DNA from: Parahaliea mediterranea | Lineage (GTDB): Bacteria > Pseudomonadota > Gammaproteobacteria > Pseudomonadales > Halieaceae | Length of the DNA: 64,000 nucleotides | Reading direction: 5' to 3' | NCBI RefSeq assembly: GCF_003402235.1 | Contig: NZ_QEWO01000004.1 | Location: 186,001 to 250,000, forward strand | In this document: positions 22,540-43,347 of the stretch, piece after piece | How positions within the stretch are numbered: position 1 is the first letter of the stretch | Layout: the number at the start of each line of letters is the position of its first letter | Translations under genes and position numbers: made by a program | The notes under the pieces: model-generated | Told to the model about the DNA's origin: nothing | Databases searched by the model: none | What the model saw: only the letters and a program-made list of their open reading frames with translations

Positions 22540-23613
22540 TCAGGCGTTACCCTTGACCTGCAGTTTGAGATCCGCGGCGAAGTCCAGCATGCGCCGCAGC
22601 GGCACCATGGCCTGCTCCCCCACCGCAGGGTCAACGAAAATTTCATTGTCAGTGCGATCGAACACGCCGGCCAGGCTTTCCAGTTCGTTCATGGCCATCC
22701 ACGGGCAGTTGGCGCAGCTGCGGCAGGTCGCCCCGTTGCCGGCGGTGGGGGCAATGATGAACTCCTTGCCCGGCGCCAGCTGCTGCAGTTTGTAGAAGAT
22801 GCCCTGGTCCGTGGCCACGATGAATCGCTCGTTGTCCATTTCCTGGGCGGCACGAATGATCTGGGTGGTGGAACCCACGCGGTCGGCCAGCTCCAGCACC
22901 GAGGCCGGCGACTCCGGGTGCACCAGCACCGCCGCGTCCGGGTAGACCTTTTTCAGGTCGGCGATGCCCCGGGCCTTGAACTCTTCGTGCACAATGCAGG
23001 CGCCGTCCCACATCAGGATATCGGCACCACTTTCACGGCGCACGTAGTCGCCCAGGTGGCGGTCGGGGGCCCAGATGATTTTCTCGCCCTTGGCGGCCAG
23101 GTGCTCGGCCACATCCAGGGCAATGCTGGAGGTGACCACCCAGTCGGCCCGCGCCTTTACTGCCGCCGAGGTATTCGCGTAAACCACCACCGTGCGATCC
23201 GGGTGCTGGTCGCAGAAGGCGGAGAACTCATCGATCGGGCAGCCAAGGTCCAGGGAGCAGGTGGCTTCCAGGGTCGGCATCAGCACCCGCTTCTGGGGCG
23301 TCAGAATTTTCGCGGTTTCGCCCATGAACTTGACCCCGGCAACCACCAGGGTGTCGGCCGGATGGTCGTGCCCGAAGCGGGCCATCTCCAGCGAATCGGA
23401 TACGCAGCCGCCGGTTTCCTCCGCCAGGGCCTGGATGGCCGGCGCGGTGTAGTAATGCGCCACGATCACTGCATTCTTTTCTTTCAGACGCTGCTTGATG
23501 CGCGCCTTGAGCGCCGCCTCCTGCTGCGGCGAGAGCTGGCTGCGCTCGGCGTTATCCAGATGGTACTGCACCTGCTGGCGAATGGTTTCCAGTTTTTCGG
23601 ACGCTAGACTCAT
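22540..23613 (-). CDS. nadA: Quinolinate synthase NadA
   Basis: Iron-sulfur enzyme that condenses iminoaspartate with dihydroxyacetone phosphate to quinolinate in NAD synthesis. The 357-residue protein shows the cluster-ligand regions [19 protein letters not shown] and [10 protein letters not shown], plus [10 protein letters not shown] and HPESPASV. The start at 23613 ([12 protein letters not shown]) fits the family length. The reading frame is open for over 200 codons further upstream, but that part overlaps a divergent gene and is not conserved. It is convergent with bepA. Confidence 0.96.
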
Positions 23614-23775
23614 GGGGGATACTGCGGGGAAAATCGCGATGGGATAATGCCCGATTCTACCACAGATTGGCGCGCTGGAAATTCTGCCGTAAAGTAGGTG
23701 GCCATCCGCGCTGGCAGGCGGCATTGCCGAACCTTCATCACCCACAGAAATAAACACACTAATAAAAAGGATGCC

Positions 23776-24276
23776 ATGAGCCAGTTCGACTACGTGAAAA
23801 CCCGCCGCGAGGACGTGCGCCCTATCTCTGACAAACAGGTGCCGCTGGTGCGCTTCTTCCTGAAATGGGCCACCCGCCTGCAGGTTGCCGGCTTTCGCGC
23901 CAGCAAGGGTCGCATCATGAACACCTTCCCCGGCGGTTTCCCGGTGTGCGTGGTGACAACCCTGGGCGCAAAGAGCCGCAAGCCCCGCCGCATTGCCCTG
24001 ATCCACTTGCCCATCGGCGAGGACAAACTGCTGGTTGCCTCCCAGGGCGGCATGCCGCGCAACCCCGCCTGGTACTACAACATCCGGGCCAACCCCGAGG
24101 TGCAGATCATGGTGGACGGCGAAGAACACGCCTACCTGGCACGCCAGGTGAGCGCCGAGGAAAAGGCCGAACTGTGGCCCCACCTGTGCTCGCTCTACCC
24201 CGATTTTGACGAATACCAGGCACGCACCGACCGGGACATTCCCGTGTTTCGCTGCCGCCGCACCAACGCCGGCTGA
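23776..24276 (+). CDS. Nitroreductase-family deazaflavin (F420)-type oxidoreductase
   Basis: A 166-residue protein of the DDN/TIGR00026 type. Visible family features are [17 protein letters not shown], the [16 protein letters not shown] block and [12 protein letters not shown]. Characterised relatives in actinobacteria use the deazaflavin coenzyme F420; cofactor use in a gammaproteobacterium is unproven. AAAGG lies about 6 bases before the ATG at 23776, which decides the start over an upstream in-frame codon. It is divergent from nadA. A second F420-associated family member lies at 47244-48284. Confidence 0.82.
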
Positions 24277-24379
24277 ATCGGCGATATTCACCAACCCGCT
24301 TGCAACCATTGCGCCGCTCGCCGCCCTCCCCTATCGTGCGCGGGCAACTTCCCACGCCACAGCACCCAGCGAGGACACC

Positions 24380-24919: not shown

Positions 24920-26626
24920 GTGGAACAGCACACCGTTCTGATCATTTCCGATAATCCGGCGGATGGCGCCGTGCTGTCGGCCTGCCTGCGGCGCGCCCTG
25001 CCCCGCCGCTTTCACCTTGCCAGCAACGACAACCTTGAACGCCCCCTGGAAGCCCTGCTCGACCCGGCCCTGGATGCCATCATCCTCGCCGAAGGCCCGG
25101 AGTCTGAATACCTGCTGCGCCTGGCGCAAAAGCACTTTGTGCCGGCGCCCATCATCCTTCTGCTGGACGAGGTTGACGAGCACACCGCCACCCGCCTGAA
25201 AGAGTTTGGCGCCCAGGACTACCTGCTGCGCGGCCAGTTGCAGGATGCCCTGGTGCACCGGGTGCTGGACTACAGCATCCAGCTGAAGCAGGCGCGCCTG
25301 ACCATTGAGCAACTGTCCAACCGGGACAGCCTCACCGGCGCCCTCAACCGGGCCGGCTTTCGTGCCCACCTGGAGCGCGCCGTGGAACGCTCCAGCCGCT
25401 ACAACTTCACCACCGCCCTCCTCTATATCAACATCGATCGCTTCGCCAACATCAACGACCACTACGGCGAAAGCAACGGCGACGCGCTGATCCAGACCCT
25501 GGCCCGCCGCCTCGGCAACAAGCTGCGCAACACCGACAGCCTGGCGCGGTTGGGCGGCGACGAGTTTGCCATCGTGCTGGAGGATGTTGGATCCGCCGCG
25601 GATGTGGAACTGATTGTGGGCAAGATGCTGACCTCCCTGTCGGCACCGGTGGTGATCAATGACCAGCAGGTCTCCATTGATTGCAGCATCGGCGCCGCCC
25701 TGTTCCCGGACGACGGCGCCGACATCGCCGACCTGATCGACGCCGCCCGCAACGCCATGCAGCAGGCCAAATCGGTGCAGGGCAGCAAGTACATACGCTT
25801 CAGCAGCCAGATTCTGTTCGATGTCACCGGCAGCAACACCCTGGCCGCCGAGTTGCGCACCGCGGTGCGCAAAAACCAGTTTGAGCTGCACTACCAACCG
25901 CGGGTCGACCTGCAAACGGGACTGCTGGTGGGGCTGGAAGCCCTGCTGCGCTGGAACCATCCGGAACGCGGCCTGATCTGCCCCGGCGAGTTCATTAAGG
26001 AATGCGAAGACATGGGACTGATGAGCACCATCGGTTACCAGGTCATCCAGCACGCCTGCCACGCCCTGAACTGGCTGCAGGACCAGGGCCTTGAACACGT
26101 GGACGTGGCGGTCAACGTGTCCTTCAGCCAGATGCAGGACGAACGCTTTGTAGGCGTTGTTAAGGACATTCTGCAGCGCACCGACACCGACCCCAACAAC
26201 CTCGAATTTGAGCTGACCGAAAGCACCATTCTGAAAAGCCCCGGTGCCATTAAAACGCGCATGGACGAGCTGCGCCTGCTGGGGATTTCCTTCTCGCTGG
26301 ATGATTTTGGCACCGGCTTTTCGCAGCTGTCGCACCTGACGGAACTGCCCATCTCCGCACTGAAAATAGACGGCGCGTTTGTGCGCGAGCTGCCGCACAA
26401 CCCACAGCAGGTTGCCGTCAGCAGCATGATCATTGAAATGGCCCAGCGCCTTGGCATGAAGGTGATTGCCGAGGGCGCCGAAACCTATGAGCAGGTGAGC
26501 TTCCTGCGCGCGCAGGCCTGCCACCAGGTGCAGGGTTTTTACTACAGCCCGGCAATTCCCCTGCAGCAGCTGCCCCGCTTCGTGCAGGAGCAGCGATTCA
26601 AACGCCGTGAACGCATCCCGTCCTGA
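24920..26626 (+). CDS. GGDEF-EAL protein with degenerate receiver domain
   Basis: A 568-residue cytoplasmic protein for cyclic-di-GMP turnover. Residues 1-125 resemble a CheY receiver, but the phospho-acceptor position reads ILAEGPE (no Asp) and the conserved Lys is missing, so it is probably not phosphorylated. The GGDEF domain has LGGDEF near 211 with an inhibitory-site RxxD (RNTD) five residues before GGDEF. The EAL domain begins at GLEALLRW near 338 and keeps ELTES, LDDFGTG, ALKID, AEGAE and QGFYYS, so phosphodiesterase residues are intact. The start is GTG with GGGG nearby. It is followed at 80 bases by a second GGDEF-EAL gene. Confidence 0.92.
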   Translation: MEQHTVLIISDNPADGAVLSACLRRALPRRFHLASNDNLERPLEALLDPALDAIILAEGPESEYLLRLAQKHFVPAPIILLLDEVDEHTATRLKEFGAQDYLLRGQLQDALVHRVLDYSIQLKQARLTIEQLSNRDSLTGALNRAGFRAHLERAVERSSRYNFTTALLYINIDRFANINDHYGESNGDALIQTLARRLGNKLRNTDSLARLGGDEFAIVLEDVGSAADVELIVGKMLTSLSAPVVINDQQVSIDCSIGAALFPDDGADIADLIDAARNAMQQAKSVQGSKYIRFSSQILFDVTGSNTLAAELRTAVRKNQFELHYQPRVDLQTGLLVGLEALLRWNHPERGLICPGEFIKECEDMGLMSTIGYQVIQHACHALNWLQDQGLEHVDVAVNVSFSQMQDERFVGVVKDILQRTDTDPNNLEFELTESTILKSPGAIKTRMDELRLLGISFSLDDFGTGFSQLSHLTELPISALKIDGAFVRELPHNPQQVAVSSMIIEMAQRLGMKVIAEGAETYEQVSFLRAQACHQVQGFYYSPAIPLQQLPRFVQEQRFKRRERIPS

Positions 26627-26705
26627 GCCGCCCTCCGTTGCGCTGGGTTTAGCCCGGCGTAAGTGGTAGCCTAACTGCGAAGCGAAAAGGCGCGTTCCAG
26701 CACTC

Positions 26706-28511
26706 ATGTCATCCAGCACCCCTTCCAGGCTCCGCGCAAAGGTCCTTGTCAGCGACGACGACATCAACGTGCGCCTGCTTACCCGACAGTGCCTGGAAGC
26801 CGAGGGCATGGCGGTGGTGGAAGCCAGCAACGGCCCGGAAACCATCGACGTGTTTGTGCGCGAACGGCCAGACCTTGTTTTCCTGGATGTGGAAATGCCC
26901 GGCATGAGCGGACTGGAAGTGTGCAAGCGCATCCGGCAGATGCCCCAGGGCGAATCCATCCCTATCATGATTGTGACCGGCTCCGACGATCGCCAGTCCA
27001 TCGACCAGGGTTTTGAGGCAGGCGCCACCCAGTACAAGACGAAGCCGGTGAACTGGTCGCTGCTGGGGCGCGATGTGCAGTACATGCTACGCGCCAGCAA
27101 CGCCTTTAACGCGCTGAAACGACAGGAAGACCGCCTGCGCTACCTGGCCTACTACGACCCACTCACCAGCCTGCCCAACCGGCGCAGTTTCAATGAACAG
27201 CTCAACCGTATTCTCAAGCGCAGCCAGCGCCGCGGTTCCAACGCCGCGCTGATGTTCATCGACCTCGACCACTTCAAACGCATCAATGACTCCATTGGCC
27301 ACGGCCGCGGTGATCGCCTGCTGGTGGAAATTGCCAAGCGCTTGAGCAGTGAGTTACGCGAGGACGACGCCATCAACTACATCGCCGAGAATCACAACGG
27401 CGAAGCGATGGATGCCGCCACCGAAATTGCCCGCCTGGGTGGAGACGAGTTTACCGTTGTGCTCTCCGACGTACCGGACACCAGCCATGTGGAGAGCGTG
27501 GCTAAGCGTATTCTACGCAGCCTGTCAGAACCCATCGCACTGCAGTCGCACAACCCGGTAGTGACCCCGAGTATCGGCATTGCCCTCTACCCGCAGGACG
27601 GCACCGACCCCGACAGCCTGGTGCGCAATGCAGACACGGCCATGTATGCCGCCAAGGCCGAGGGGCGCGCCTGCTACCGCTTTTACAACGAAGACATGAA
27701 CGCCAAGGCGGTCGAGCAACTCAAGATGGAAGAAGAGTTGCGCCACGCCATGGGCAACCAGGAACTGGAGCTGCGCTACCAACCACAAATCGCCACCGAC
27801 AGCGGCAGTGTTGTAGGGCTGGAAGCACTGCTGCGCTGGAAGCACCCGGTGCGCGGGATGGTGCCGCCCAGCGAGTTCATCCCGGTGGCAGAGCGCACCG
27901 GGATGATCATTGAGCTTGGCGAATGGGTCATTGAAGAAGTCGCCCGCCACTGTGCCTACTGGGATACCCTGAAACTGCCGGAATTCCGGGTGAGCGTGAA
28001 CATCTCCTCCATCCAGTTCAACCAGCGCGACCTGGCCACACGGGTGTCACACATCCTCGCCGCCTCGGGTCTTAGCGCTTCGCGCCTGGAGTTGGAGCTC
28101 ACCGAGAGCGCCATCATGACGGACGCACCAACCAACATCGCCAAATTGCGCGAACTGAAGGCACTGGGGCTTGCGTTGGCGGTTGACGACTTCGGCACGG
28201 GTTATTCCTCCCTGAGCTACCTGAAGCGCTTCCCCATCGACACACTCAAAATCGACCAGAGCTTTATCACTGACCTCGGCAGTCCTGATGGCGCAGCCAT
28301 TGTCGATGCCATACTCGCCCTGTCCAGCTCCCTCAAGCTGCAGGTGATTGCCGAAGGTATCGAGACTGAAGACCAGCTTGGCTACCTGCTGCGGCGCAAC
28401 TGCCATTTGCTCCAGGGCTACTACTTTTCGCGCCCGATTTACCCGGAAGATGTTCCCACCTTGCTCAAGCAGGACTTCGGCCCGGTACTGCAACGACTCG
28501 CCAGCGCCTAG
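26706..28511 (+). CDS. Response regulator with GGDEF and EAL domains
   Basis: A 601-residue response regulator. The receiver domain (1-125) has SDDD, phospho-acceptor Asp61 in FLDVEMPG, VTGSDD and Lys in KTKPV, so it looks active. The GGDEF domain has RLGGDEF near 245. The inhibitory-site motif REDD is displaced by an insertion of about 18 residues relative to the usual spacing. The EAL domain (GLEALLRWKHP near 372, ELTES, VDDFGTGYSS, LKIDQSF, AEGIE, LLQGYYFS) keeps catalytic residues. It ends 11 bases before the subtilase gene. A natural phospho-donor would be one of the hybrid kinases downstream, but this is inference. Confidence 0.93.
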   Translation: MSSSTPSRLRAKVLVSDDDINVRLLTRQCLEAEGMAVVEASNGPETIDVFVRERPDLVFLDVEMPGMSGLEVCKRIRQMPQGESIPIMIVTGSDDRQSIDQGFEAGATQYKTKPVNWSLLGRDVQYMLRASNAFNALKRQEDRLRYLAYYDPLTSLPNRRSFNEQLNRILKRSQRRGSNAALMFIDLDHFKRINDSIGHGRGDRLLVEIAKRLSSELREDDAINYIAENHNGEAMDAATEIARLGGDEFTVVLSDVPDTSHVESVAKRILRSLSEPIALQSHNPVVTPSIGIALYPQDGTDPDSLVRNADTAMYAAKAEGRACYRFYNEDMNAKAVEQLKMEEELRHAMGNQELELRYQPQIATDSGSVVGLEALLRWKHPVRGMVPPSEFIPVAERTGMIIELGEWVIEEVARHCAYWDTLKLPEFRVSVNISSIQFNQRDLATRVSHILAASGLSASRLELELTESAIMTDAPTNIAKLRELKALGLALAVDDFGTGYSSLSYLKRFPIDTLKIDQSFITDLGSPDGAAIVDAILALSSSLKLQVIAEGIETEDQLGYLLRRNCHLLQGYYFSRPIYPEDVPTLLKQDFGPVLQRLASA

Positions 28512-28522
28512 CCGCGGATCAG

Positions 28523-30505
28523 ATGATGCCACGCTTGCTCTACGGCCTTGCCGGCGCAACCTTGACGCTGCTGTCACTGGCACTGGCACTGCCGCCAGCG
28601 ACTGCCCGGGCGCAGGCCGACGATACCCCCCTGATGCGGGTGATGCTGCAGGGAGAGTCCGCCAGCCAGCTCAGTGCCTTGGTCAAGCAGCGCGGTGGCA
28701 TCGTCACCCACGAGCTGCACATCATCAACGCCGTTGGCGCCAGGGTCACCCGCCAACAGCTTGACGGCATCCTGCAGTCACCCCTGGTGTCGCGCCATAT
28801 TGACGATTTGTCCATCCGGCCCGAGGAAGAGACCGAGGAGCAGTGCAACGTCGGCGCCGGCCTGGAACTGGAAATCGGCCCCGATGCCCTGCGTTGGCCG
28901 CTGTATAACAAAGGCTCGGCGCCGGTCAGCCTGAACCAACTGGCCCTGGCCTGGCCAGCGCAGATGGGCGAGTTGCAGGGCCTGTACTACAACGGCGCCC
29001 CCCTGGCCTATAAAAAAGCCAGCGGTGGCGATAGCATGGAACTCAGCCTGGACGCCACTGCAACCCGGCTGGCGCCGGGCGACAGCGCCCTGCTGGCCCT
29101 GCGCTTTGACGGCAGCAGTGCCTCCGTCAGCCAGCAGGATATCGACCTCACCGCCCGCTTTGCCGAGGGTTGCAACACCGAGCTGATTCCCGGCTATGCC
29201 CACTACGGGAACGATACCTATTACCCCAGCGTGGTGGGCGCCTCCGCCCTGCACCGGCTCGGCATTACCGGCCAGGGCGTGACCGTTGCAGTGCTGGACT
29301 CCGGGCTGTGGGAGCACGTCTCACTCAGCCACGACACCCGGGGCCGCTACCGGGTGAAGGGCCGTTACGATGCCATTGCCGACCGGCAGGGCCAGGAGGT
29401 TTTCGACGAGAGCGGCCACGGCACACACATGACCAGCGTACTCGCCCACAGCGGCCCCGTGCTTGCCAAGGGGCAGCCCGACGGCAGCTTTATGGGCATA
29501 GCGCCGGATGTCGACATTGTGTCGGTGAAGGCCTTCAATCGGTCGGGGCAAGGTGATTTTCTCGACATCGTTCGCGGCATACAGTGGATTGTGGACCAGC
29601 GCGAGGCACTGAATATCCGGGTGCTGAACCTGTCCTTCGCCGCCCGGCCGCGCTGGCCCTACTGGCTCGACCCGATTGACCAGGCGGTGATGCGCGCCTG
29701 GCAGGCGGGCATCACCGTGGTTGCCGCCGCCGGCAACGACGGACCGGAGCCCATGACCATCGGCTCCCCGGGCAACCTGCCCTACATTATCACCGTGGGC
29801 GCCGTGACCGATTCCTGGACGCCGGATGATCGCAACGACGACTACATCCCAGACTTTTCCTCCCTGGGGCCCACCCCAAGCGCCCACATCAAACCCGACA
29901 TTGTGGCCCCCGGCGGCCATATCGCCGGCATTACCCGACCGGGCTCCACCCTGACCATTGAACACCCCGACTACCTGCTGAGCAGCGGCGAATTTGTCAT
30001 GACCGGCACCTCCCAGGCCAGCGCCCTGGTCAGCGGCATTGTGGCCCTTCTGCTGCAGCTAGAGCCGGATTTGAGCCCCGACGACATCAAGTGCAAGCTG
30101 ACCTCCAGCGCCGAGCCCGCCATCAACCGCGACGGGCGCTTTGCCTACAGTCCCTTCCAGCAGGGATACGGCTACATCAATGCCAGCCGGGCCGTTACCC
30201 TGGGCAAGCGTGGCTGCGGCAACGTCGGCCTGGACCTGGCCCAGGACATCGACAACCAGCAGCACTACGAAGGGCCCGCCATCATCAACGATAGCGGCGT
30301 GGCCACCCTGCCTGGCCTTGAGGCCCTGTACAGCGGCGAGGCTACAGAAAAAGGCATGAGCGACAACCGCCGCTGGGGGGTAAAAGCCCATATCGAGCGC
30401 GCCGGTGGCCCCGCCGACGGCCAGTCCCCGATTGACTGGCCCAGCATGTACGAGGAAGAACGGACCGCCATCCAGCGCCTGTCCCGCCCCCCAGGTACCC
30501 TCTAG
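28523..30505 (+). CDS. Secreted subtilisin-family (S8) serine peptidase
   Basis: A 660-residue exported protease. A signal peptide covers about 1-31 (ATARAQA). It is followed by a propeptide-like region (LVKQRGGIVTHELHIINAVG) and a beta-rich stretch. The catalytic triad is complete: Asp259 in VLDSGLW, His299 in GHGTHMT, Ser497 in GTSQASA, with the oxyanion Asn in AAAGNDGP. The last 110 residues are not part of the catalytic core and resemble a C-terminal extension seen in secreted subtilases. It starts 11 bases after the response regulator and is probably cotranscribed. Processing of the adjacent repeat protein is a testable possibility. A G-rich tract begins at its stop codon. Confidence 0.92.
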   Translation: MMPRLLYGLAGATLTLLSLALALPPATARAQADDTPLMRVMLQGESASQLSALVKQRGGIVTHELHIINAVGARVTRQQLDGILQSPLVSRHIDDLSIRPEEETEEQCNVGAGLELEIGPDALRWPLYNKGSAPVSLNQLALAWPAQMGELQGLYYNGAPLAYKKASGGDSMELSLDATATRLAPGDSALLALRFDGSSASVSQQDIDLTARFAEGCNTELIPGYAHYGNDTYYPSVVGASALHRLGITGQGVTVAVLDSGLWEHVSLSHDTRGRYRVKGRYDAIADRQGQEVFDESGHGTHMTSVLAHSGPVLAKGQPDGSFMGIAPDVDIVSVKAFNRSGQGDFLDIVRGIQWIVDQREALNIRVLNLSFAARPRWPYWLDPIDQAVMRAWQAGITVVAAAGNDGPEPMTIGSPGNLPYIITVGAVTDSWTPDDRNDDYIPDFSSLGPTPSAHIKPDIVAPGGHIAGITRPGSTLTIEHPDYLLSSGEFVMTGTSQASALVSGIVALLLQLEPDLSPDDIKCKLTSSAEPAINRDGRFAYSPFQQGYGYINASRAVTLGKRGCGNVGLDLAQDIDNQQHYEGPAIINDSGVATLPGLEALYSGEATEKGMSDNRRWGVKAHIERAGGPADGQSPIDWPSMYEEERTAIQRLSRPPGTL

Positions 30506-30531
30506 GGGCGCCGGGGGCCGGGGGCCGGGGG
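30505..30531 (+). other. G-quadruplex-like G-tract
   Basis: Four runs of G (4, 5, 5 and 5) separated by 4, 2 and 2 bases begin in the stop codon of the subtilase gene. This fits the usual G-quadruplex pattern on the + strand and in the mRNA. It is followed at once by an A-rich tract. It could help end the upstream transcript or be a slippage-prone repeat. Confidence 0.55.
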
Positions 30532-30835
30532 CCGGTAAAAAAACCAAAAAAATAGCGCAATCAGGCGCACTCCATATTTTCTTTTATTTTCAATAGCTTA
30601 AACACAGAACCTGGCCGCACAACCTGCCGGAGCCGTCCTGTGCCGCCAGGCCTAACCCAAAATGGGCATATACAGTCCTTCTACACCCCAACACCAATCC
30701 GTATAACAAAGTCAAACAGCGAAACAAAAGGCTGTGAACCGCATCTCAGGGACGGATGCAAAGTAGAGACACGGGTCACAGAATGGCCTGTCAGGATGGT
30801 TTGCAAGACAACTCAAGTATTGGTGGGGCAGCACA
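30506..30835 (+). promoter_or_regulatory. 330-base leader region of the repeat-protein gene
   Basis: No gene is visible here. The first part is a G-tract then an AT-rich segment (30536-30600). A possible -10 (TATAAC, 30702-30707) lies about 130 bases before the start codon, with only a weak -35. Downstream of it lies a nested set of complementary segments (30719-30804). GTGGGGC precedes the ATG at 30836 as a plausible ribosome-binding site. Confidence 0.5.
30719..30804 (+). promoter_or_regulatory. Predicted structured 5' leader RNA
   Basis: Three nested pairings are visible. GC-g-AAAC (30719-30725) pairs with GTTTGC (30799-30804). CTGTGA plus CC (30732-30740) pairs with GG plus TCACAG (30773-30781). 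GCATC (30741-30745) pairs with GATGC (30755-30759). The unpaired parts contain GGGACG and GCAAAG and are followed by CACGGGTC, words that recall c-di-GMP-I (GEMM) riboswitches. The canonical uninterrupted GACGCAAAGCC and the side-by-side hairpins are absent. It may be a degenerate or distinct RNA element. Confidence 0.4.
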
Positions 30836-31693
30836 ATGAAAACTTCTTCTCTGGTGAAATCTGTACGTCTGGCTGTCGGCGCATTGTTCTGCGCGACTTC
30901 TTTTCAAGCGCTGTCTGCAAGCCCCGTTTTGCAGGGCGAAGCAACCTCCAGTGCTGCTGCCACGCAGGTTCACCAGGTAACACACAGCCTGGCAGCCAAC
31001 GCGACTTACACCTCCAACGCGGGTTACAAGTGGGGTCGCACCGCCGATGCAAAGCCAGCCATTGCCCACTGGGCACGCCAGTCCGCCTCCCGCGGTGAAA
31101 GCTACAAGTGGGGCCAGGACGGCCAGTCCGATCAGCTGGGCTATGCCAACACTGAATCCACCGCTTACACTTGGGGCACCGAGAACTTCGCCAAGCAGTC
31201 TGGCTACAAGTGGCGCATCAATTCCTTCGCCGACCAGGCCGGTTACAAGTGGCGCATCAACTCCTTCGCCGACCAGGCCGGCTACAAGTGGCGCATCAAT
31301 TCCTTCGCTGACCAGGCCGGCTACAAGTGGCGCATCAACTCCTTCGCTGACCAGGCTGGCTACAAGTGGCGCATCAACTCCTTCGCTGACCAGGCCGGTT
31401 ACAAGTGGCGCATCAATTCCTTCGCTGACCAGGCTGGCTACAAGTGGCGCATCAACTCCTTCGCTGACCAGGCCGGTTACAAGTGGCGCATCAATTCCTT
31501 CGCTGACCAGGCCGGCTACAAGTGGCGCATCAACTCCTTCGCTGACCAGGCCGGTTACAAGTGGCGCATCAACTCCTTCGCCGAGCAGGCTGGTTACAAG
31601 TGGCGCATCAACTCCTTCGCCGAGCAGGCTGGTTACAAGTGGCGCATCAACTCCTTCGCCGAGCAGGCTGGTTACAAGTGGCGCATCAACTAA
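30836..31693 (+). CDS. Secreted 13-residue tandem-repeat protein of unknown function
   Basis: A 285-residue protein. A signal peptide covers about 1-27 (FCATSFQALSA). A short region follows, then imperfect copies of a 13-residue unit (YKWGRTADAKPAI, AHWARQSASRGES, YKWGQDGQSDQLG, YTWGTENFAKQSG). Twelve full copies of GYKWRINSFADQA come next, the last three with Glu for Asp, and a final GYKWRIN before the stop. Every unit has invariant Tyr, Lys, Trp, Arg and Phe, with no Cys or Pro. I do not recognise a family. Options are an amyloid or solenoid matrix protein, or a polyprotein of identical peptides. It is preceded by a secreted subtilase and followed by its own terminator and two propeller sensor kinases. 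Confidence 0.85.
   Translation: MKTSSLVKSVRLAVGALFCATSFQALSASPVLQGEATSSAAATQVHQVTHSLAANATYTSNAGYKWGRTADAKPAIAHWARQSASRGESYKWGQDGQSDQLGYANTESTAYTWGTENFAKQSGYKWRINSFADQAGYKWRINSFADQAGYKWRINSFADQAGYKWRINSFADQAGYKWRINSFADQAGYKWRINSFADQAGYKWRINSFADQAGYKWRINSFADQAGYKWRINSFADQAGYKWRINSFAEQAGYKWRINSFAEQAGYKWRINSFAEQAGYKWRIN
31202..31690 (+). repeat. 39-bp tandem repeat, 12 full copies plus 21 bp
   Basis: In-frame array with period exactly 39 bases. Units differ almost only at synonymous third positions (GGC/GGT, AAC/AAT, GCC/GCT). Units 10-12 are identical to each other and carry the GAG (Glu) change. This pattern indicates recent unit duplication with selection to keep the peptide. Confidence 0.97.
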
Positions 31694-31740
31694 GCGGTGG
31701 ACGGTAGGGCCCTGCCCGGCCTTACCCGACGCCTTAGCGA

Positions 31741-31768
31741 AAAGCCCGTCCAACAGGACGGGCTTTTT
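31741..31768 (+). terminator. Intrinsic terminator of the repeat-protein gene
   Basis: Stem AAAGCCCGTCC / GGACGGGCTTT with a 4-base loop (AACA), ending in a run of five T residues. It isolates the repeat gene from the kinase gene that starts at 31882. Confidence 0.92.
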
Positions 31769-31881
31769 GCGTTTAGAAGCCCCAGTCATTTCAACGGCCT
31801 GGTCGGCCCACATAAAGTAGTTTCAACAAATCCAATCCATTAGACTCGTCCAGTCTGGTCTACCGTATTGGAACGCAGGAA

Positions 31882-34800
31882 ATGAACTATCTGCTGACAC
31901 TGCTGTGTCTACTGCTGTGCAGCGCCCGCGTCGGCGCTTCAGCGGCTGAGGCAGATGTCACCATCAGTTTTCATCCTGCCGTGTTTGCCAATGACCTGAC
32001 GCAGAAGACCGTCAGCCAGATTTTCCAGGACTCCACCGGCGCCATCTGGTTTGCATCACTAGAAGGCCTCAATCGCTACAACGGGCACGAACTGGAAAAC
32101 TTCCGGTACTCGCCCGGCAGCCCGGACAGCCTGAGTTCCGACCATGTTACCGGCATCACCGAAGACAAAAACGGCACGATATGGATCTCTACGGTCGGCG
32201 GCGGCCTAAACCGCTTTGACCCCGCGAAGAACACGTTTTCTGCTCAGTACCTGGATCGTAACAACCCGGATGGACTGCTTTCCAATGATGTCAATACGGT
32301 CTTCACCGACAGCGCCGGCCAGATCTGGCTCGGCCATGCCAATGCGTTTTCCTCCCTCGACCCGCAGACCGGCAAGTTCAGTCACTACACCCTGAACGAC
32401 AAACTATCTGCCCCCTTCGGTGACATCATCAGTTTTTCCCAGTCTGCCGACGGCAGAATCTGGATTGCCGCCACCGATGCCGGCATTCTGGTTCTCGACC
32501 CAAAATCTCGGACGATCACACCAATACAGCGCGATGCGACGGGGCGTTTCCCCCCAACCGAGAATATCATCGACACAGCCATCGACAGTCGCAACCGGCT
32601 CTGGATTGCGAGCACCACCAACGGGGTCGGGTTCCTGGACCTGAATACCGGCCAACGCCGCCACTTCCAGTACCAGGCGTCGAACGTTAACTCGCTTCCC
32701 TCCAACGCGGCGTTCAAAATATTCGAGGATCAGAACGGCTATATCTGGATAGGCACCCAGGAAGGGCTTTGCTACTTCAGCGACCGCAGCGACAGCTTCA
32801 CCCGGATCAACACCAACAACGCCAACCTGCCCAGCGACCCTATCTACAGTATTTTCCAATCAGCGGAAGGGCAGTACTGGATAGGCACCTACGATGGCCT
32901 GGCCACCGGAACCCGGCTTATCTTCCCCACCTACAACGAGGCCAACACCAACCTCTCCAGCGACTCGGTCAATACCTTCGCCGAAACCGGCGATGGCAGC
33001 TTCTGGGTGGGCACCGACAACGGCCTCAACCGCCTTCGCCCGGATCACCAGAACTTCGAGTGGATCAACCAGTACACCTTCCCCAGCATCTCCAGCGGCA
33101 AGGTCATGAGCCTGCTTGGCGAGGACGACGCCATCTGGGTAGGCACCTTCGATGAGGGCTTGAACCGCATTGACCTCAACAACAACCAGGTTGAGGTGTT
33201 CAGAAAATCCGCCAGCGGCAACAACACCATTCCCGCCAACGGCATCACCTCGATTATCCGCGGCAGCGACCAGCGGATATACATCGGCACCTTTGGCGGC
33301 GGGCTGAGTGTCTACAACGAAGCCCAGAAAACCTTCACCAACTACCAGCACAACCCGGCAGACAGAAATAGCCTGAGCAGCAACAAGGTCATTGCGGTCT
33401 ACCAGGATTCCCTGGGCTACGTTTGGGTGGGCACCGAGAACGGGCTCAACGGGTTCGACCCGAAAACCGGGCAGTTCGTCCGCCTGTTCTCGGAGCGCGG
33501 CAATCCCGACAGCCTTTCCAATGACATGGTCTGGGCCTTCTATGAAGACCCAAGAGGCAACCTGTGGCTTGGCACCAACGGCGGCGGCCTGAATCGCTGG
33601 AGCCGGCAAGACAGGCAGGCCATGAACAATCACTTCGACAAATACACCAACAACTCGGGCCTGCCCAGTTCTCATATCTACGGCATACAGCCGAGCCAGG
33701 ACGGCGGTATCTGGCTGTCGCACAACAACGGCGCCAGCCTGCTCAACCCGAACTCTGGCCAGGCGCGCCATTTTGGCATCCGCGATGGCCTGCAGGATCG
33801 GGAATTCAACCTGGGCGCCTCGTACCGCGCCAGTGACGGCAGTGTGTACTTTGGGGGCAACCGCGGCTACAACCTGATCAACAGCGAAAACTACACCCAT
33901 GAAACCACACCGCCCAAGGTCAGCATTTCCGAAATACGGATAATGAACCAGCGGGCGGTGTTCGATGAGCCTTACAACAGCCTGGACCAGGTCAATCTGG
34001 GCTATCGGGACATCATGGTCTCCTTTGAGTTTTTTGCCGCCCATTACACCAACCCCGGGCTTATCAAATACGCCTACAAACTTGACGGCATTAACACCGA
34101 CTGGGTGATCTCGGAGTCATCGCGCATTGCAACCTTCACCACCCTGCCGGCAGGGGAGTACACCTTGCGACTGGCCGCGGCCACCCCCAGCGGCGTGTGG
34201 AACTGGGACGCGGTGCAATTGCCCATCAGCGTATCGCCTCCCCCCTGGCTGAGCAGGCCCGCGTACGTTCTCTACACCCTGATTGGCCTGGTGCTGCTTT
34301 GGATTCCGTTCTACCGCAACAAGCGGCAGGCCATGCTGTCCAGGAACCGTCAGATCGAGCTTGAAGCGAAAGTCGCCGAGCGAACCCAGGATCTGGAAGA
34401 GGCGAGAAAAATCGCCGAGCGCGCCAACAAAGCGAAATCCGAATTTCTTGCCACCATCAGCCATGAAATCAGGACCCCGCTGCACGGCATGATTGGCATG
34501 ACCGACCTGCTGTTGCACACCAAACTCAGCTCCCAGCAGCGAAAGTTTGCCGACGCAGCGCGCAACAGCGGCGAGTCCCTACTGAACCTCATCAATGAAA
34601 TTCTGGATTTCTCGAAAATCGAAGCCAAGAAGATCGTCCTGGAAAGCACTGCCTTTGACCTGCCCAAACTCGTGGAAGACGTGTGCTTTCTCCAGGCAAG
34701 CATGGCGAAGCGCAAGCAGATTGATCTGCTGCCCATCATCAACTTGCCGTACCAGGTTGAGTGCCTGGGCGATCCAACCAAAATCCGCCAGATACTGACC

Positions 34801-36351
34801 AACCTGGTCAACAATGCCATAAAGTTCACCCACGAAGGCTATATCCGCATTGAGGTCTCATTCAGCGCCGCAGCCGGGCAAGCTCCAGATATTGCTACCT
34901 TCAACATAAAGGACACGGGTATCGGCATGGATGCCAACACGCTGGCAAAAATTTTCGATCCCTTTACCCAGGCCGATGCCAGTACAACGAGAGAATACGG
35001 CGGTACCGGCCTTGGTCTGACGATATGCCAGCAGTACATCGACCTGATGGGTGGCGACATTGCGATCCAGTCAGCGCTGGGAGAAGGGACTGACATCCAA
35101 TTCTCCATCCCGCTGGAGGTTACAAAGACGGGTGACTTTGCAGGGCACACTGCATTTTCTTCCGCCCTTGTGGTGTGTGCCAATGATAATCGCCAGCGTA
35201 TGGTGTGTACTCAACTTGAACGGCTTGCCATACGCCCCGTGAGCGCCCCCACACTCGACCACTCCACGCTGTCCCACACTGGCGGGCAGTTGGTGATGGT
35301 TGATCCGTCGGCATCTGCACTTGATCACAACGCACTGAACACCCTGCAATCGATGTCGAATGTGATTCTTATCGCCTCTGAGGAAGCCCTTGATGAGTCG
35401 TTGCACCAATGCGCGTTCCCGCTATTGGAACCGCCCATTACCTTGGACAATTTATTGCGCGCAGTGGAAGAGGTCAGTGGTGCAGACAGTACCCGCACCG
35501 GGCCTTCCGCGATTGCCAAATCGCATCACTCGGCAAGAATACTGGTTGCAGAAGATGTAGAAACCAACCAGAGGATTGTCCGTGAGATGCTGGAGTTGCT
35601 CGGCCATGAAGTGGTCATTGCAGAAAACGGTGAGAAAGCCGTTGCAGCGTTTCGCGCGCAGAAAATTGACCTGGTGTTTATGGATTGCCAGATGCCGGTG
35701 ATGGACGGCTTCAGAGCTTCGAAGGCTATCCGCGAATATGAAGAAGACCAGAGCCTTGAAAAAACGCCTATTATTGCCCTCTCGGCCGGCGCTTCTGGCA
35801 ACGACAAGGCCCTGGCCCGGCAGGCCGGTATGGACCACTACCTCTCCAAGCCCTACACCTTTGACGATTTGTCCGAATCCATCGAGGCCTATTGCCATAC
35901 CTACCACGGCAACGCCGTTGCCCTGGGGCCTCGCCGGATCATTACCGACCCGGCACAGGGGGCCGATGCGGCACCGGAGGACAGCTCCAACCTGGTGATA
36001 GGGTCGGCCATCGACAACATTCGCTCGCTGGAAACACAAACGGGCCGCGACATATTGCCGGTGGTGTTCGATGGCTATAGCCGCCAATTCGAGGAAAAAC
36101 TCATTGAGCTGCGCAGCGCCAATGAACAGGGCGCGATGACGCAGATCTATCAGGCGTCCCATGCCATCAAATCGATGAGCGCCAATATCGGCGCCGCCAT
36201 GGTCAGGAAGATCGCCGGCGAGATCGAGGAAAAATCCAAGGCCAACAGCGCTTACGATTACGCCTACTCGATCGATAACCTGGAGGATGCCCACTACGAA
36301 TTCAGCCAGTTCTTCCGGCAACAATTCCTGAAAAACACAGGAACCGACTAG
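31882..36351 (+). CDS. Hybrid histidine kinase with periplasmic propeller, Y_Y_Y, REC and Hpt
   Basis: A 1489-residue one-protein phosphorelay. A signal peptide (1-22) is followed by a periplasmic two-component-propeller region with many repeats of the form D..G.IW.GT..GLN (about 30-690). Next come a Y_Y_Y domain (about 700-785) and one membrane span (794-812). The kinase core has phospho-His861 in [25 protein letters not shown] and GGTGLGL. A degenerate receiver-like region follows (about 1093-1200). A true receiver has Asp1268 in [11 protein letters not shown], and an Hpt domain has His1427 in [12 protein letters not shown]. Such BaeS/HTCS-like sensors often detect oligosaccharides or other periplasmic ligands. 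The ligand here is unknown. The second propeller kinase starts 20 bases later. Confidence 0.93.
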
Positions 36352-36371
36352 ACAACCAAGAATCCACAGCC

Positions 36372-39300
36372 TTGACAGATACCCGCTTGTACCGACGCTC
36401 CACCACGCTCAGGGCAATCGCCCTGCTCCTGCTGTTGGTCGCCGGCAGCGGACACCGGTTCGTGCTGGCCAGCAACGCAGGTGAGCAGTTCCACATTTCT
36501 CCCACTGGGTCTTCGAGCACACGGTCGCACAGCACCATACTGGCGATCGTAAAGGCACAAAGCGGGCTGGTCTGGGTGGCCGCAGCGGGCGGCGTCGCTG
36601 TCTACGATGGACACCGGGTCACCTCCTACACCGACTGGATCGACAGCGACGGCAGGCATCGCGCGCTGAACGTCTCGGCCATGGCGCAAACCCGTTCGGG
36701 CATCCTCCTTCTGGCAACCCACGGCAGCGGGCTGCTCGCCTTTGACCCGGCCACCAACGGCTTTGTACCGGCCCGCCAGAAGATTCCGCTGAATACCACG
36801 GCCGATGATGAGAACATCACCCGCGTGTTTGTCGATGGCCGTGGAAACGTTTGGCTTGGCCTGGACTCTGGCCTGGTAACATCCCTTGATGAAGCCGCCG
36901 GGCTGCCGGGAAGCTACGCCAAACTCGATAGCCCGGTGGCGGACATCACCGAGGAAGCTGACGGCACCGTCTACGCCCTGGGTACCGATGGCCAGCTCGC
37001 AATCTTTAGCAGGGCCCACCCCACGCCCGCCATCGTCGACCTCAAGGCCCTCTGCCAGCCGTCCCTGCACAGTCTGACGGCCATTCACCCCCTGTCCGGC
37101 TCAACCGTTTTGTTGGGCACGCGGGGCGATGGCCTGTACCTGCAAGACCTCAGCAAGGGGAAGTGCCGCAAAGAAGGGCTGAGTGATGCATTGGCCGGCG
37201 TCATCGCCGACACCGTGGTGCATGACATTGTGTCAGACACCACCGATGACTCGCTGTGGATAGGCACCGACCGCGGACTGTTCCACCGCAACGCGGGGCA
37301 GGCCAGCAGGTTCCATCAGCGCAATTCGGATATCAGCAACAATGAAGTCACCAGCCTGCTCAGCGCCGACAGCGGGCTGCTGTGGATTGGCACCTACGCG
37401 GGGCTGAACATTGGCACCCGGTCACTGTTCGAGAGTGTTACCGCGCACAACCAGCCGCTGTTGAGTACCGTGTTTGCCATAGACGGCAATGACACCCTTG
37501 GCACCTGGATAGCGACCTACGACAACCTCTTTCGCGAAGACCCGACAACGGGCCAGCTGACGCCCATCGACCAACTGTTCCCTGGTCTCGATGCGGCGTC
37601 ACTGGGCATCATGAGCCTCCATGTGCATCAGCGTTATCTTTATATCGGCACCAGAAACAGGGGGCTGGTGGTGCTGGATACCGAGCGGCGGCGGCGCTCT
37701 GCCTATCACAGCCAAAGCGTGCCCGGCCTGCCCAGCAACTCCGTCAGCGCCATCCTCACCACCGACGCCGGTGAACTGCTGGTGGGCACCCACGGCGCCG
37801 GGCTGGCGGTGATCACCCTGTGGCCAGGCGCAACCAGGCGCACCGCTGTGGTCGATACCGCCGATGGGCTTCTCCACAACAACGTCACCGCGCTCTTTCG
37901 GCATTCCGATGGCCGCCTGTTTGTCGCCAGCGAGGGCGGCCTGCAGGTTTTTCATCCATCCACCGGAGCCTTTGACGATGTTATTTTCACCGGTGAGTCG
38001 CCGGGCCACGGTACTGTCGCGGCGCTGTCCCTCACCGAAGACAGCCACGGCTGCCTCTGGATTGGTACCTACCGGCAGGGCCTGTTTCTCCTCGACACCG
38101 GCCACGGCCCGGGCCAGCTCACCGCGCGCCCGGTAACAACCGGCGCACCGATCAGCAAAACGGTGTATGCCCTGCAGGCGGACAACAGCGGCGCTGTGTG
38201 GGCCTCCACCAACCGGGGCCTTAGCCGCATCGGGCCCGATTTGTCGGTGCACAATTTCCGCTACAAACACGGGCTCCAGGGGCCGGATTTCGAATTCGGC
38301 GCCTCGTATCAAGCCACTAGCGGCCAAATCTATTTTGGCGGCAGCCACGGATACAACCGCTTTGACCCCGCCGCCTTCAGCCTTAGCAGCCAGCCGGCGC
38401 CCGTCGTGCTGACCGGTATCACCATTGCCGGCAAGGCCCGGGCGCTGCACACCACCGCGCAACAGCCCGCCAGCATCGAGCTATCGCATGCGGATTACTA
38501 CGTCACCTTCGACTTCAGTGCGCTCGACTATGTCGACCCCGACAGCAACCTGTACCGCTACAAGCTCGAAGGCTTCGACCCGGACTGGGTCAGCATCGGC
38601 AACCGCAGCAGCGCCACCTACACCAACCTGCCACCGGGGAACTACCAGTTTCGGGTGCAGGCCGCCAATTCAAACGGCGTCTGGAATTTCGACGGCGCCA
38701 GCCTGGCGCTGTATGTCAGCCCTCCGCCGTGGCGCCAGTGGTGGGCCTGGTGCCTGTATGCGGCCGCCCTTTTGCTGCTTGGCCGCCAGGCCAAGCGCAG
38801 CTACGACAGGCACATTATCCACCGGGCCACCCAGCAACGGGCCACGGCGCTGGCACTCACCGCCGACAGGGCCCTGGACGATGCCCAGGAACAGCTGGAG
38901 GAACAGGCCCAGTTGGTAGAGGCGATTCACCAGTTCAACCTCGTCAGGCTAACCCTGCTGCGCGAATGCCTTGCCCGGCAGGCCAAAACGCTGCCACCAC
39001 CCGAGTACGCCGCGCTGCAACGCCATATTTGCGGCCGCCTCAGCGCCATGCAGTGCCTGGAGCAGGCCCTGCGCTATTGCCACGAGGAGCTACTGGCCAA
39101 CCTGCACAGCTACACCAACGACCTGGCGCAGCAGTTGGAGGCGGCCCATAGCGCCGGCGAGCGCATTGTGCTGGTGAACGACCTGCCAGAACAGCTCCTG
39201 CCCGCCAGCGCGGCCCTGCCCCTGTCCATCATCCTGTACGAGTTGCTGGAAAACGCCTACGCCCACGCCTTTGCCGCCTTCCCTGAGGGGGGCATTGTCA

Positions 39301-39524
39301 TCGTCAGGGCGCATTATGGTGATGCCGCAAAGGGCGAGGCGGCCCTGTTCGAGATTGTGGATAACGGCGCCGGTTTACCGCCGGCCGTTGCCATCGACAC
39401 GCCCGCTTCGCCAGGCCTTGCCACCGTGGCGGAGCTGGTTCGCTCGCTGGGTGGAACGCTCAGCGTGCAGCGCAGTAAGGGAACACACTACAGCCTGCGA
39501 GTGCCCGCCATCGGCCGGCCGTAG
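36372..39524 (+). CDS. Propeller/Y_Y_Y sensor kinase with atypical DHp region
   Basis: A 1050-residue sensor built like its upstream neighbour: N-terminal signal or membrane segment (AIALLLLLVAGSG), two-component-propeller repeats, a Y_Y_Y domain (about 700-785) and a membrane span (about 789-808). The cytoplasmic part resembles HisKA_2 kinases. It has a coiled coil, then His853 in AIHQFNLVRL where relatives have IHHRVKNNL, followed by an HATPase with YELLENAYAHAF and IVDNGAGL. No receiver or Hpt is attached. The start is TTG (36372), 20 bases after the hybrid kinase gene. The propellers may have arisen by duplication. Whether the atypical DHp is phosphorylated cannot be told from sequence. 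Confidence 0.88.
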   Translation: MTDTRLYRRSTTLRAIALLLLLVAGSGHRFVLASNAGEQFHISPTGSSSTRSHSTILAIVKAQSGLVWVAAAGGVAVYDGHRVTSYTDWIDSDGRHRALNVSAMAQTRSGILLLATHGSGLLAFDPATNGFVPARQKIPLNTTADDENITRVFVDGRGNVWLGLDSGLVTSLDEAAGLPGSYAKLDSPVADITEEADGTVYALGTDGQLAIFSRAHPTPAIVDLKALCQPSLHSLTAIHPLSGSTVLLGTRGDGLYLQDLSKGKCRKEGLSDALAGVIADTVVHDIVSDTTDDSLWIGTDRGLFHRNAGQASRFHQRNSDISNNEVTSLLSADSGLLWIGTYAGLNIGTRSLFESVTAHNQPLLSTVFAIDGNDTLGTWIATYDNLFREDPTTGQLTPIDQLFPGLDAASLGIMSLHVHQRYLYIGTRNRGLVVLDTERRRRSAYHSQSVPGLPSNSVSAILTTDAGELLVGTHGAGLAVITLWPGATRRTAVVDTADGLLHNNVTALFRHSDGRLFVASEGGLQVFHPSTGAFDDVIFTGESPGHGTVAALSLTEDSHGCLWIGTYRQGLFLLDTGHGPGQLTARPVTTGAPISKTVYALQADNSGAVWASTNRGLSRIGPDLSVHNFRYKHGLQGPDFEFGASYQATSGQIYFGGSHGYNRFDPAAFSLSSQPAPVVLTGITIAGKARALHTTAQQPASIELSHADYYVTFDFSALDYVDPDSNLYRYKLEGFDPDWVSIGNRSSATYTNLPPGNYQFRVQAANSNGVWNFDGASLALYVSPPPWRQWWAWCLYAAALLLLGRQAKRSYDRHIIHRATQQRATALALTADRALDDAQEQLEEQAQLVEAIHQFNLVRLTLLRECLARQAKTLPPPEYAALQRHICGRLSAMQCLEQALRYCHEELLANLHSYTNDLAQQLEAAHSAGERIVLVNDLPEQLLPASAALPLSIILYELLENAYAHAFAAFPEGGIVIVRAHYGDAAKGEAALFEIVDNGAGLPPAVAIDTPASPGLATVAELVRSLGGTLSVQRSKGTHYSLRVPAIGRP

Positions 39525-42453: not shown

Positions 42454-42483
42454 GCAAATCCCCGCCCACCGATGGAGCCCCCT

Positions 42484-43347
42484 TTGAACACGTTGCTCGA
42501 GAAATTGATTCGCCAGCTGGAAGTAGAGCGCATCGACCGCTTCTTGTTTCTCGGCAAGAGCCCGAAATTCCCACCGCGGGTGTTTGGCGGCCAGGTGCTG
42601 GCCCAGGCGCTCTACGCCGCCAGCCAGACGGTGAACAGCGAGCGCCTGGTGCACTCCATGCACGGCTACTTCCTGCGCCCTGGCGACCCGGCCAAGCAGA
42701 TCATCTACGATGTGGACCCAATCCGCGACGGTGGCAGCTTTACCACCCGCCGGGTGGTGGCCAAGCAGGATGGCGTGGCCATCTTCAATAGCGCTCTGTC
42801 ATTCCAGGCCGAGGAGGCAGGGCTGGAGCACCAGGCCAGCGCGCCCCAGGTCACCGCGCCGGAAGGCCTGGAAACCGATGCCCAGTACTGGACGCGCATG
42901 GCCGAGGAACGGCCGGGCCTGGTGCACGATGGCATGATGATGCAGCCGATTGAACGCCGCCCGGTGGAGCGGCGCGACCTGGAACAGCCCCAGCCCACTG
43001 AGCCGGTGCAGCACTACTGGTTTCGCGTGCCCACGGACATTGGCGACAACCCGGTGCGCCACCAGATGCTGCTGGCCTACATGTCGGATTTTGCCCTGCT
43101 CGGCACTGCCATGCTGCCCCACCCCTACAGCGGGCGTACCAGGGGCATGCAGGTGGCGAGCCTGGATCACGCCATCTGGTTTCACCGCCGGGCGCGTGTG
43201 GACGACTTCCTGCTTTACACCATGGACAGCCCGGCAGCCGGCGGGGGCCGCGGTTTCAGTCGCGGCAGCTTCTACACTCGCGACGGGGTGCTGATTGCCT
43301 CAACGGCCCAGGAATCCCTGCAGCGCCTGCCCCGGGACGAGGGCTAG
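42484..43347 (+). CDS. tesB: Acyl-CoA thioesterase II (TesB-like)
   Basis: A 287-residue double-hotdog thioesterase that hydrolyses acyl-CoA. Family blocks visible are RVFGGQVLAQAL, HSMHGYFLRPGD, RDGGSFTTRRV, HQMLLAYMSDF and SLDHAIWFHRR (the DHA motif with catalytic Asp). The start is read as TTG at 42484 because GGAG lies 6 bases upstream and the N-terminus then matches the family (NTLLEKLIRQL). An ATG 12 bases earlier has no ribosome-binding site. Its stop codon overlaps that of the convergent sixA-like gene in the palindrome CTAG. Confidence 0.92.
   Translation: MNTLLEKLIRQLEVERIDRFLFLGKSPKFPPRVFGGQVLAQALYAASQTVNSERLVHSMHGYFLRPGDPAKQIIYDVDPIRDGGSFTTRRVVAKQDGVAIFNSALSFQAEEAGLEHQASAPQVTAPEGLETDAQYWTRMAEERPGLVHDGMMMQPIERRPVERRDLEQPQPTEPVQHYWFRVPTDIGDNPVRHQMLLAYMSDFALLGTAMLPHPYSGRTRGMQVASLDHAIWFHRRARVDDFLLYTMDSPAAGGGRGFSRGSFYTRDGVLIASTAQESLQRLPRDEG

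Follow-up and report, generated by a model that had tools for sequence, protein, structure and literature searches.

A six-gene locus of Parahaliea mediterranea (family Halieaceae) was analysed within a stretch of 64,000 nucleotides (nt), further called the window, in whose positions all coordinates are given. The locus encodes two enzymes of cyclic di-GMP (c-di-GMP) turnover (protein A and RR_B), a secreted S8 subtilase, a secreted repeat protein named REP and two propeller proteins, HHK1 and HK2. The strongest result is that REP and HHK1 are exchanged together between relatives, with the junction at the start codon of REP. The locus may be regarded as a signal-receptor cassette with c-di-GMP output, in which REP would be a multicopy peptide precursor read by HHK1, and this reading is held to be slightly likelier right than wrong. 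The module was found undescribed in the literature searched, as judged from titles and the first parts of abstracts with most subscription papers outside reach, and the motif YKWGIR did not appear in that literature.

Joint exchange of REP and HHK1

REP (30836-31693, + strand) precedes HHK1 (31882-36351, + strand), in which Pfam recognises Reg_prop, Y_Y_Y, HisKA, HATPase, REC and Hpt domains. The exchange is clearest in the genus Haliea (g27), where seven of the eight genomes were compared, the sequence of G070 ending before REP. The HHK1 propellers of this genus fall into two types, 60-87% identical within a type and 38-42% between types. The repeat unit is YKWGFRSYADQAG in G028, G066, G071 and G072 and YRWGIRNVADQAG in G068 and G069, while in the partly sequenced G067 only GYRWGIRNV is visible; in all seven genomes the unit follows the HHK1 type and not the species, and RR_B is 87-100% identical. 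Between G071 and G068 identity is 100% for RR_B and 92% for the subtilase, against 41% for the HHK1 propeller and 26% for the N-terminal part of REP. At the DNA level these two genomes align over 8026 bp at 96.3%, and the alignment ends at position 8152 of the G071 locus, where REP starts at 8144. In windows of 200 nt RR_B is fully identical (100%); identity is 81-98% across the subtilase and 82-84% over the final 400 nt ahead of REP, and falls to 42-61% beyond. The long alignment of G072 with G069 stops 21 nt before the REP start, and the last stretch at 70% between the genome of P. mediterranea and G002 ends 6 nt into REP. In three pairs of different type the alignment thus breaks off no more than 21 nt from the start codon of REP, whereas in the same-type pairs (G067/G068, G028/G071 and the window with G001, which shares its genus) it continues into REP.

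The core of the unit is also tracked by HHK1 across a wider sample of 45 taxa. Positions 1-8 of the unit require 61 steps on the HHK1-propeller tree, as compared with 76 on the subtilase (S8) tree and 74 on the RR_B tree; for positions 9-13 the numbers are 44, 42 and 42 respectively. In simulations that let the unit evolve along either the S8 or the RR_B tree by a simple model, none of 400 runs was as extreme toward HHK1 for positions 1-8, and positions 9-13 gave an ordinary value (198 and 172 of 400). A single clade of the seven members with YRW units (26 taxa) was rejected by the S8 data (p 0.0003) and by those of RR_B but not by HHK1: its propeller gave p 0.36, and in the rest of the protein the seven form a supported clade (96). 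On the S8 tree residue 2 of the unit changes with HHK1 type in five of five independent pairs (sign test 0.06), and on the RR_B tree it does so in six of six (0.03).

The repeat protein

The secreted protein with a 13-residue repeat reported by the first-pass annotation is present, with twelve full units and a half unit. REP begins with a signal peptide (judged by eye), followed by a loose region with YKWG and YTWG motifs and then by the array, composed of nine copies of YKWRINSFADQAG, three of YKWRINSFAEQAG and, directly before the stop codon, a last YKWRIN. In the DNA the array is a 39-nt tandem repeat (31205-31691, + strand; 12.5 copies with 95% matches in Tandem Repeats Finder), and its regularity lies far beyond chance. 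Across 58 members the unit consensus is [Y/S/F][K/R]WG[I/L/F/V/R][R/K/N][S/N]x[A/S][D/E]Q[A/S/T][G/A], with glutamine at position 11 in 56. The period is mostly 13 residues and 12 in some members (G153, G147), and the number of units extends from two or three (G025, G154) to about 20 (G066, G074). The way in which the array ends is itself conserved: the last Trp stands exactly three residues before the protein end in 44 of 48 closed arrays and within three in 46. These 48 REPs come from 85 loci; proteins that are cut by a contig end, fused, single-motif or fail a 13-residue filter (such as the 12-residue units of G153) were left out. In the 52 arrays with at least three units the pooled ratio of amino-acid-changing to silent differences (pN/pS) between units of an array is 0.20, with single arrays ranging from 0 to 0.88. 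Per site, silent differences outnumber amino-acid changes about fivefold, and the unit copies are therefore kept by selection.

No Pfam, NCBIfam or PHROG family convincingly describes REP. Its Pfam matches to HTH_AraC, Inhibitor_I29 and DUF3110 and two PHROG matches were dismissed as artefacts of periodicity, as no stretch passes alone. In the PDB it has no sequence relative, the sole weak match (E 0.09) being an antibody chain, and in viral contigs none of 22 pattern matches was confirmed. The 84 REP-like plasmid records, mostly from Klebsiella, were attributed to chance repetitive similarity, since all lie below 60% identity and none covers 80% of the query; the best identity among the plasmid matches listed is 32%. 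As a separate observation, plasmids of Klebsiella, Raoultella and Enterobacter contain a stretch, in many cases unannotated, that matches the REP array at 29-32% identity along some 180 residues.

Occurrence in the family

REP was detected in 23 of 58 genomes (that of the window included), and all 23 belong to Halieaceae. The family was then covered by 140 genomes, with E cut-offs of 1e-60 for the subtilase, 1e-100 for HHK1 and 0.001 for REP, and these three proteins were found in 84, 63 and 68 genomes respectively. Subtilase and REP occur together in 68 genomes, the subtilase alone in 16, REP alone in none and neither in 56. The module is real: REP is confined to genomes with the subtilase and absent from all 56 without it (Fisher 1e-24, a value too small given shared ancestry). 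For subtilase and HHK1 the corresponding counts are 61 with both, 23 with the subtilase alone, two with HHK1 alone and 54 with neither. HHK1 accompanies REP in 60 of 68 genomes, by 54 long matches and six weaker or partial ones at 1e-15 (G017, G077, G080, G115, G119, G152). The co-occurrence of repeat gene, subtilase and kinases proposed in the first-pass annotation therefore holds throughout for the subtilase (68 of 68) and mostly for HHK1. A repeat gene widespread apart from subtilase or kinases, which the same annotation had named as the observation that would speak against a module, was largely not encountered, save for the eight REP genomes in which HHK1 was not detected.

Sixteen genomes have a subtilase but no REP match. 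In five (G008, G010, G033, G081, G082) the repeats are fused to the subtilase, those of G010 and G081 having Phe in place of Trp. Four others (G090, G101, G105, G118) encode at the place of REP a small protein with one motif, whose start is signal-like, G092 has a short REP recognised by eye, and in a further five (G011, G070, G133, G139, G158) no more than 317 nt separate the subtilase match from the contig end. The remaining genome, G003, lacks REP, HHK1 and HK2 together and keeps nadA, both GGDEF-EAL genes, the subtilase and the enoyl-CoA hydratase gene; no HHK1 match was obtained elsewhere in it.

In 78 of 85 loci the gene immediately upstream of the subtilase is that of RR_B, and HHK1 lies downstream on the same strand in 41 of the 50 loci with at least 6 kb past the subtilase, the nine exceptions being G003, G010, G081, G082, G144, G146, G151, G154 and G156. 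Of these 41 loci, 34 have a recognised HK2 behind HHK1, and in 35 of the 50 the enoyl-CoA hydratase gene follows downstream on the opposite strand. In G007, G144, G146, G154 and G156 HHK1 is located elsewhere in the genome near the enoyl-CoA hydratase gene, with REP still at the subtilase. HHK1 thus persists unlinked in five of six examined genomes that lack it beside the subtilase and REP, the exception being G151.

The neighbouring genes and their working parts

The coordinates and gene order of the first-pass annotation, from the open reading frame (ORF) at 24920-26626 to that at 36372-39524, proved exact. The seven features it counted on the + strand correspond to six genes, all on that strand and with no foreign gene in between. 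The intergenic gaps are 79, 11, 330, 188 and 20 nt, so that its spacings of 80, 11 and 20 bases were correct within one base, and its domains agree with Pfam: EAL and GGDEF in protein A, REC, GGDEF and EAL in RR_B, Peptidase_S8 in the subtilase, and two propeller proteins. Conservation of the working residues was followed in alignments of 76 subtilase, 75 RR_B, 48 protein A, 52 HHK1 and 35 HK2 proteins, for which a minimum length was required. Being short, the subtilases of G090, G101, G105 and G118 stood outside these counts, and the N-box column of HHK1, which was misplaced, was not used.

The subtilase (28523-30505, + strand; Peptidase_S8 2e-49) has its catalytic Asp, His and Ser and the oxyanion Asn intact in all 76 aligned proteins, as expected of a peptidase of family S8. 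Its C-terminus carries a single motif similar to the REP unit, RRWGVKAH, and the C-terminal Trp column is occupied in 74 of 76. The shorter subtilase of G090, G101, G105 and G118, which stands beside the single-motif protein, has a C-terminus without such a motif. In the one-contig genome G034 (locus L041) the subtilase match is split into two overlapping pieces, by a frameshift or a sequencing error.

RR_B (26706-28511, + strand), the presumed phosphorelay target of HHK1, retains the receiver Asp in 74 of 75 proteins (one gap) and each checked GGDEF and EAL residue in at least 74 of 75. Protein A (24920-26626, + strand; EAL 5e-68, GGDEF 6e-41), considered accessory, keeps D and E of GGDEF and E and L of EAL in 48 of 48 aligned homologues, and it was not found in the stretches of G005, G014, G015, G016 and G025, among others, which keep the rest of the locus. 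In HHK1 the HisKA His and the REC Asp are present in 52 of 52 and the Hpt His in 51 of 52 (one gap). The description of two propeller kinases is therefore sustained for HHK1, with its full set of kinase domains, but not for HK2 (36372-39524, + strand; Reg_prop, Y_Y_Y and HATPase), where the column examined holds His in 15 of 35 proteins and the phospho-acceptor is thus not conserved. HK2 also evolves very fast, its propeller being 48% identical to that of G001 as against 95% for RR_B. On both grounds HK2 may be a receptor partner devoid of kinase activity, and its probable role is that of a modulating partner, not of a complete kinase.

Fused and direct-output forms outside the family

Outside the family a search was made with the fused-type subtilase of locus L093 as query, in 368 other genomes of the class (E 1e-70) and 397 of the phylum (E 1e-60). 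It returned three and five genomes respectively, the latter five representing one further family. In all eight the subtilase C-terminus bears short Trp repeats (AYLWFD, GYLWNN, GDPWGGGY, GGLIWKN.., AVIWRLN.., EAFMWD and GVVWNNERAQPSNPVAE), and a propeller protein adjoins the subtilase in seven; in the eighth (G177, locus L157) the subtilase lies about 50 nt from the contig edge, with no propeller within 10 kb on the other side. The propeller is joined to GGDEF in L158, L165, L166 and L168 (just above the Pfam GGDEF cut-off in L165 and L166, just below it in L168) and to GGDEF-EAL in L159. In L167 and L169 a propeller-HisKA-HATPase-REC-Hpt protein precedes a homologue of RR_B, with 50% and 45% identity respectively. 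Within the family, G010 (the source of L093) also encodes a propeller-GGDEF protein. Repeat, subtilase, propeller and c-di-GMP enzyme thus associate in several arrangements, among them direct fusions of repeat with protease and of propeller with c-di-GMP enzyme.

Proposed mechanism and alternatives

In the proposed mechanism REP would be exported as a largely unfolded precursor with many motif copies, each consisting of a YKWGIR-like core of 6-8 residues and an ADQAG-like spacer, and the adjoining secreted subtilase would free or trim these copies. The cutting of REP into identical peptides by the subtilase, as suggested by the first-pass annotation, is a putative step, with which both the fusions of subtilase and repeat and the conserved stop behind unit residue 6 agree. 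Through its periplasmic propeller HHK1 would recognise the unit core and set the HisKA-REC-Hpt relay, which in turn would pass phosphate to RR_B and change the level of c-di-GMP, HK2 acting as a modulating partner of sensing. Of the earlier idea that the propellers sense the repeat, the joint exchange supports HHK1 as the reader, and binding itself is what we infer. The REP-HHK1 block (probably with HK2) would be swapped in types, with related species differing in signal and receptor and sharing a constant protease and output.

A number of observations weigh against this reading, and the main caveats are the linkage of REP and HHK1 and the REP genomes with no detected HHK1. Being neighbours, REP and HHK1 would be moved by one recombination whatever their function. 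No HHK1 was found at E 1e-15 in eight of 68 REP genomes (G024, G026, G030, G064, G079, G086, G087, G151), four of which are rated 91-97% complete; in seven the contig ends within 1.05 kb past the subtilase match, and G151 is not cut there, so that HHK1 may be truly lacking in such genomes. Residue 6 of the unit is R in 47 of 58 members and otherwise K, N, S, Q or M (N in the window), and therefore no single cleavage rule is obvious. One lineage (G090, G101, G105, G118) has a single-motif protein instead of an array. The tests of the YRW clade and of residue 2 used 26 of the 45 taxa, with taxa and labels chosen after the step-count trees. A distance-based (Mantel) test did not favour the HHK1 propeller over the subtilase: the partial correlation with the unit, given RR_B, was 0.50 for the S8 catalytic domain and 0.36 for the S8 pro-region, as against 0.21 (34 taxa) or 0.01 (27 taxa with HK2) for the HHK1 propeller and 0.39 for the kinase part of HK2. 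Either the subtilase, as would be expected of a processing enzyme, may co-evolve with the unit as well, or distances over 13 residues are too coarse.

Three other explanations deserve consideration. REP could form a structural or adhesive matrix, amyloid-like or solenoid, under the c-di-GMP enzymes, with the subtilase trimming it and the propellers monitoring it. Secreted near-perfect repeats do adjoin c-di-GMP enzymes, and AlphaFold2 predicts regular beta strands over the array of the window's REP (pLDDT 68-78 per block of ten, alignment of 46 members), the best fold match being the amyloid FapC, which is not significant (E 0.15, probability 0.04). The solenoid model was nevertheless rejected as evidence, because confident and unrealistic AlphaFold2 solenoids for perfect repeats are described in the available part of one report (PMC11795689) and because the natural short REP of G025 is predicted unfolded (pLDDT 53, pTM 0.12), on a shallower alignment of 20 rows against 46. 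The range of members, from a single motif or two to three units up to about 20, with periods of 12 or 13, also argues against a matrix, as does the absence of a curlin match for REP in Pfam, and an exchange of types together with the receptor would be unexpected of one; the matrix explanation, weakened in this way, is doubtful. The repeat, fused or separate, could alternatively be a decoy substrate whose intact or cut form the propeller would sense, as a measure of the cell's own external proteolysis and not as a signal between cells. Repeats on the subtilase tail in five family and eight outside genomes, the similar motif retained in split subtilases (Trp column 74 of 76) and the tracking of the subtilase by unit distance in the Mantel test are consistent with such a monitor. 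It would, however, need no types, and the swapping of REP and HHK1 types while the subtilase stays constant suggests specificity between REP and sensor, so that a protease monitor is judged unlikely.

It is also conceivable that REP and HHK1 are functionally unlinked and travel together through adjacency alone: 188 nt separate them in the window, every exchange found moves both, and eight of 68 REP genomes have no detected HHK1. The subtilase, however, is also near (330 nt) and yet does not travel, HHK1 persists unlinked in five of the six genomes examined and is lost jointly with REP in G003, and the association of repeat and propeller recurs outside the family in other arrangements. Adjacency alone is accordingly considered highly improbable.

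The reading of REP as a peptide precursor may be carried further. A multicopy peptide released by the subtilase might be passed between cells and read by the propellers into c-di-GMP, the types letting relatives recognise their own kind and the subtilase-tail repeats being an older self-contained form; this extension is tentative, and the balance lies somewhat against it. If true, it would amount to a peptide language for Gram-negative bacteria. To our knowledge, little is known of what Reg_prop propellers on c-di-GMP pathways sense. In the accessible part of a review on c-di-GMP sensing (PMC8846402) the word "propeller" is absent, and direct evidence is given for two quorum-signal receptors, neither for a peptide. 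The module supplies a genetically encoded candidate ligand whose precise sequence is given for dozens of species, and closely related members of Haliea that differ in REP-HHK1 type are natural two-type experiments in which ligand, specificity and output could be tested.

Relation to known systems

Typed peptide-pheromone two-component systems are represented by Agr, ComQXPA and ComCDE. As in these systems, a secreted precursor gene (signal peptides being judged by eye) adjoins a membrane histidine kinase gene with a protease gene near. Signal and receptor likewise vary together in exchangeable types with a constant output gene, subject to the linkage caveat and with the Mantel result against. 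In contrast to them, the host is Gram-negative, the precursor is multicopy, the ectodomain is a propeller and a c-di-GMP enzyme takes the place of a transcription factor. The place of AgrB, ComQ or an ABC peptidase is taken by an S8 subtilase, the peptide is putative, and Pfam gave no match to AgrB, ComQ or C39 ABC peptidase families among the six genes. The most economical account has the unit core as a ligand made by the cell itself, the subtilase as its processing enzyme, a receptor that comes in types and c-di-GMP as output. The module would thus work like a typed peptide-pheromone system, yet is a member of no such family tested here.

Kex2 is a subtilase-family protease, and in the yeast alpha-factor precursor the last copy ends at the stop codon, as that of REP does. 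Tandem peptide copies with spacers are also a feature of Kex2-processed repeat proteins, according to the available part of the source (PMC9769878). Unlike Kex2 precursors, the unit consensus of most members contains no dibasic site: a single basic residue stands at position 6 in most of the 58, and some g6 units have RR (WGRR). Unlike the alpha-factor system, REP is bacterial and is accompanied by a histidine kinase rather than a G-protein-coupled receptor. Cyanobactin precursors with PatA and PatG similarly combine a bacterial multicore precursor with subtilases, but no modification enzyme is found among the six genes, and the subtilase reaches 43.6 bits against the PatA/PatG NCBIfam cut-off of 421.05. 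The Reg_prop/Y_Y_Y ectodomain on a hybrid histidine kinase is shared with the hybrid two-component systems of Bacteroides; HHK1, unlike these, ends in REC-Hpt with no AraC DNA-binding domain in Pfam, and its neighbours are c-di-GMP enzymes. Functional amyloids of the curli and Fap kinds gave no Curlin or Fap family match for REP in Pfam or NCBIfam. A Lap (LapD/LapG) system is not indicated, as the LapD model scored 122 and 141 bits against a cut-off of 1020 and the protease is of type S8, not a LapG-type cysteine protease.

Further features of the window

A terminator-like hairpin with a T run follows REP (31737-31770, + strand; -28.5 kcal/mol, z -7.2), and none of 200 shuffles folds as well. 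Because of the 330-nt gap upstream and this strong hairpin downstream, REP probably forms its own transcript. The promoter scan gave no more than chance would (three found, 3.9 expected); the REP hairpin, absent from the output of the scan's terminator rule, comes from a separate folding calculation.

A second tandem repeat (12905-12991), of about six copies of a 12-nt unit, lies inside a 2-oxoacid dehydrogenase acyltransferase gene (11899-13662) and perhaps encodes a flexible linker. The ORF at 41203-42663 (486 residues) has no Pfam or NCBIfam match, and its relatives stand beyond the enoyl-CoA hydratase gene in several related loci. In the nadA ORF (22540-24309; 589 residues) the NadA domain is confined to the second half (270-576), and many nadA relatives align only from about residue 206-233 onward.

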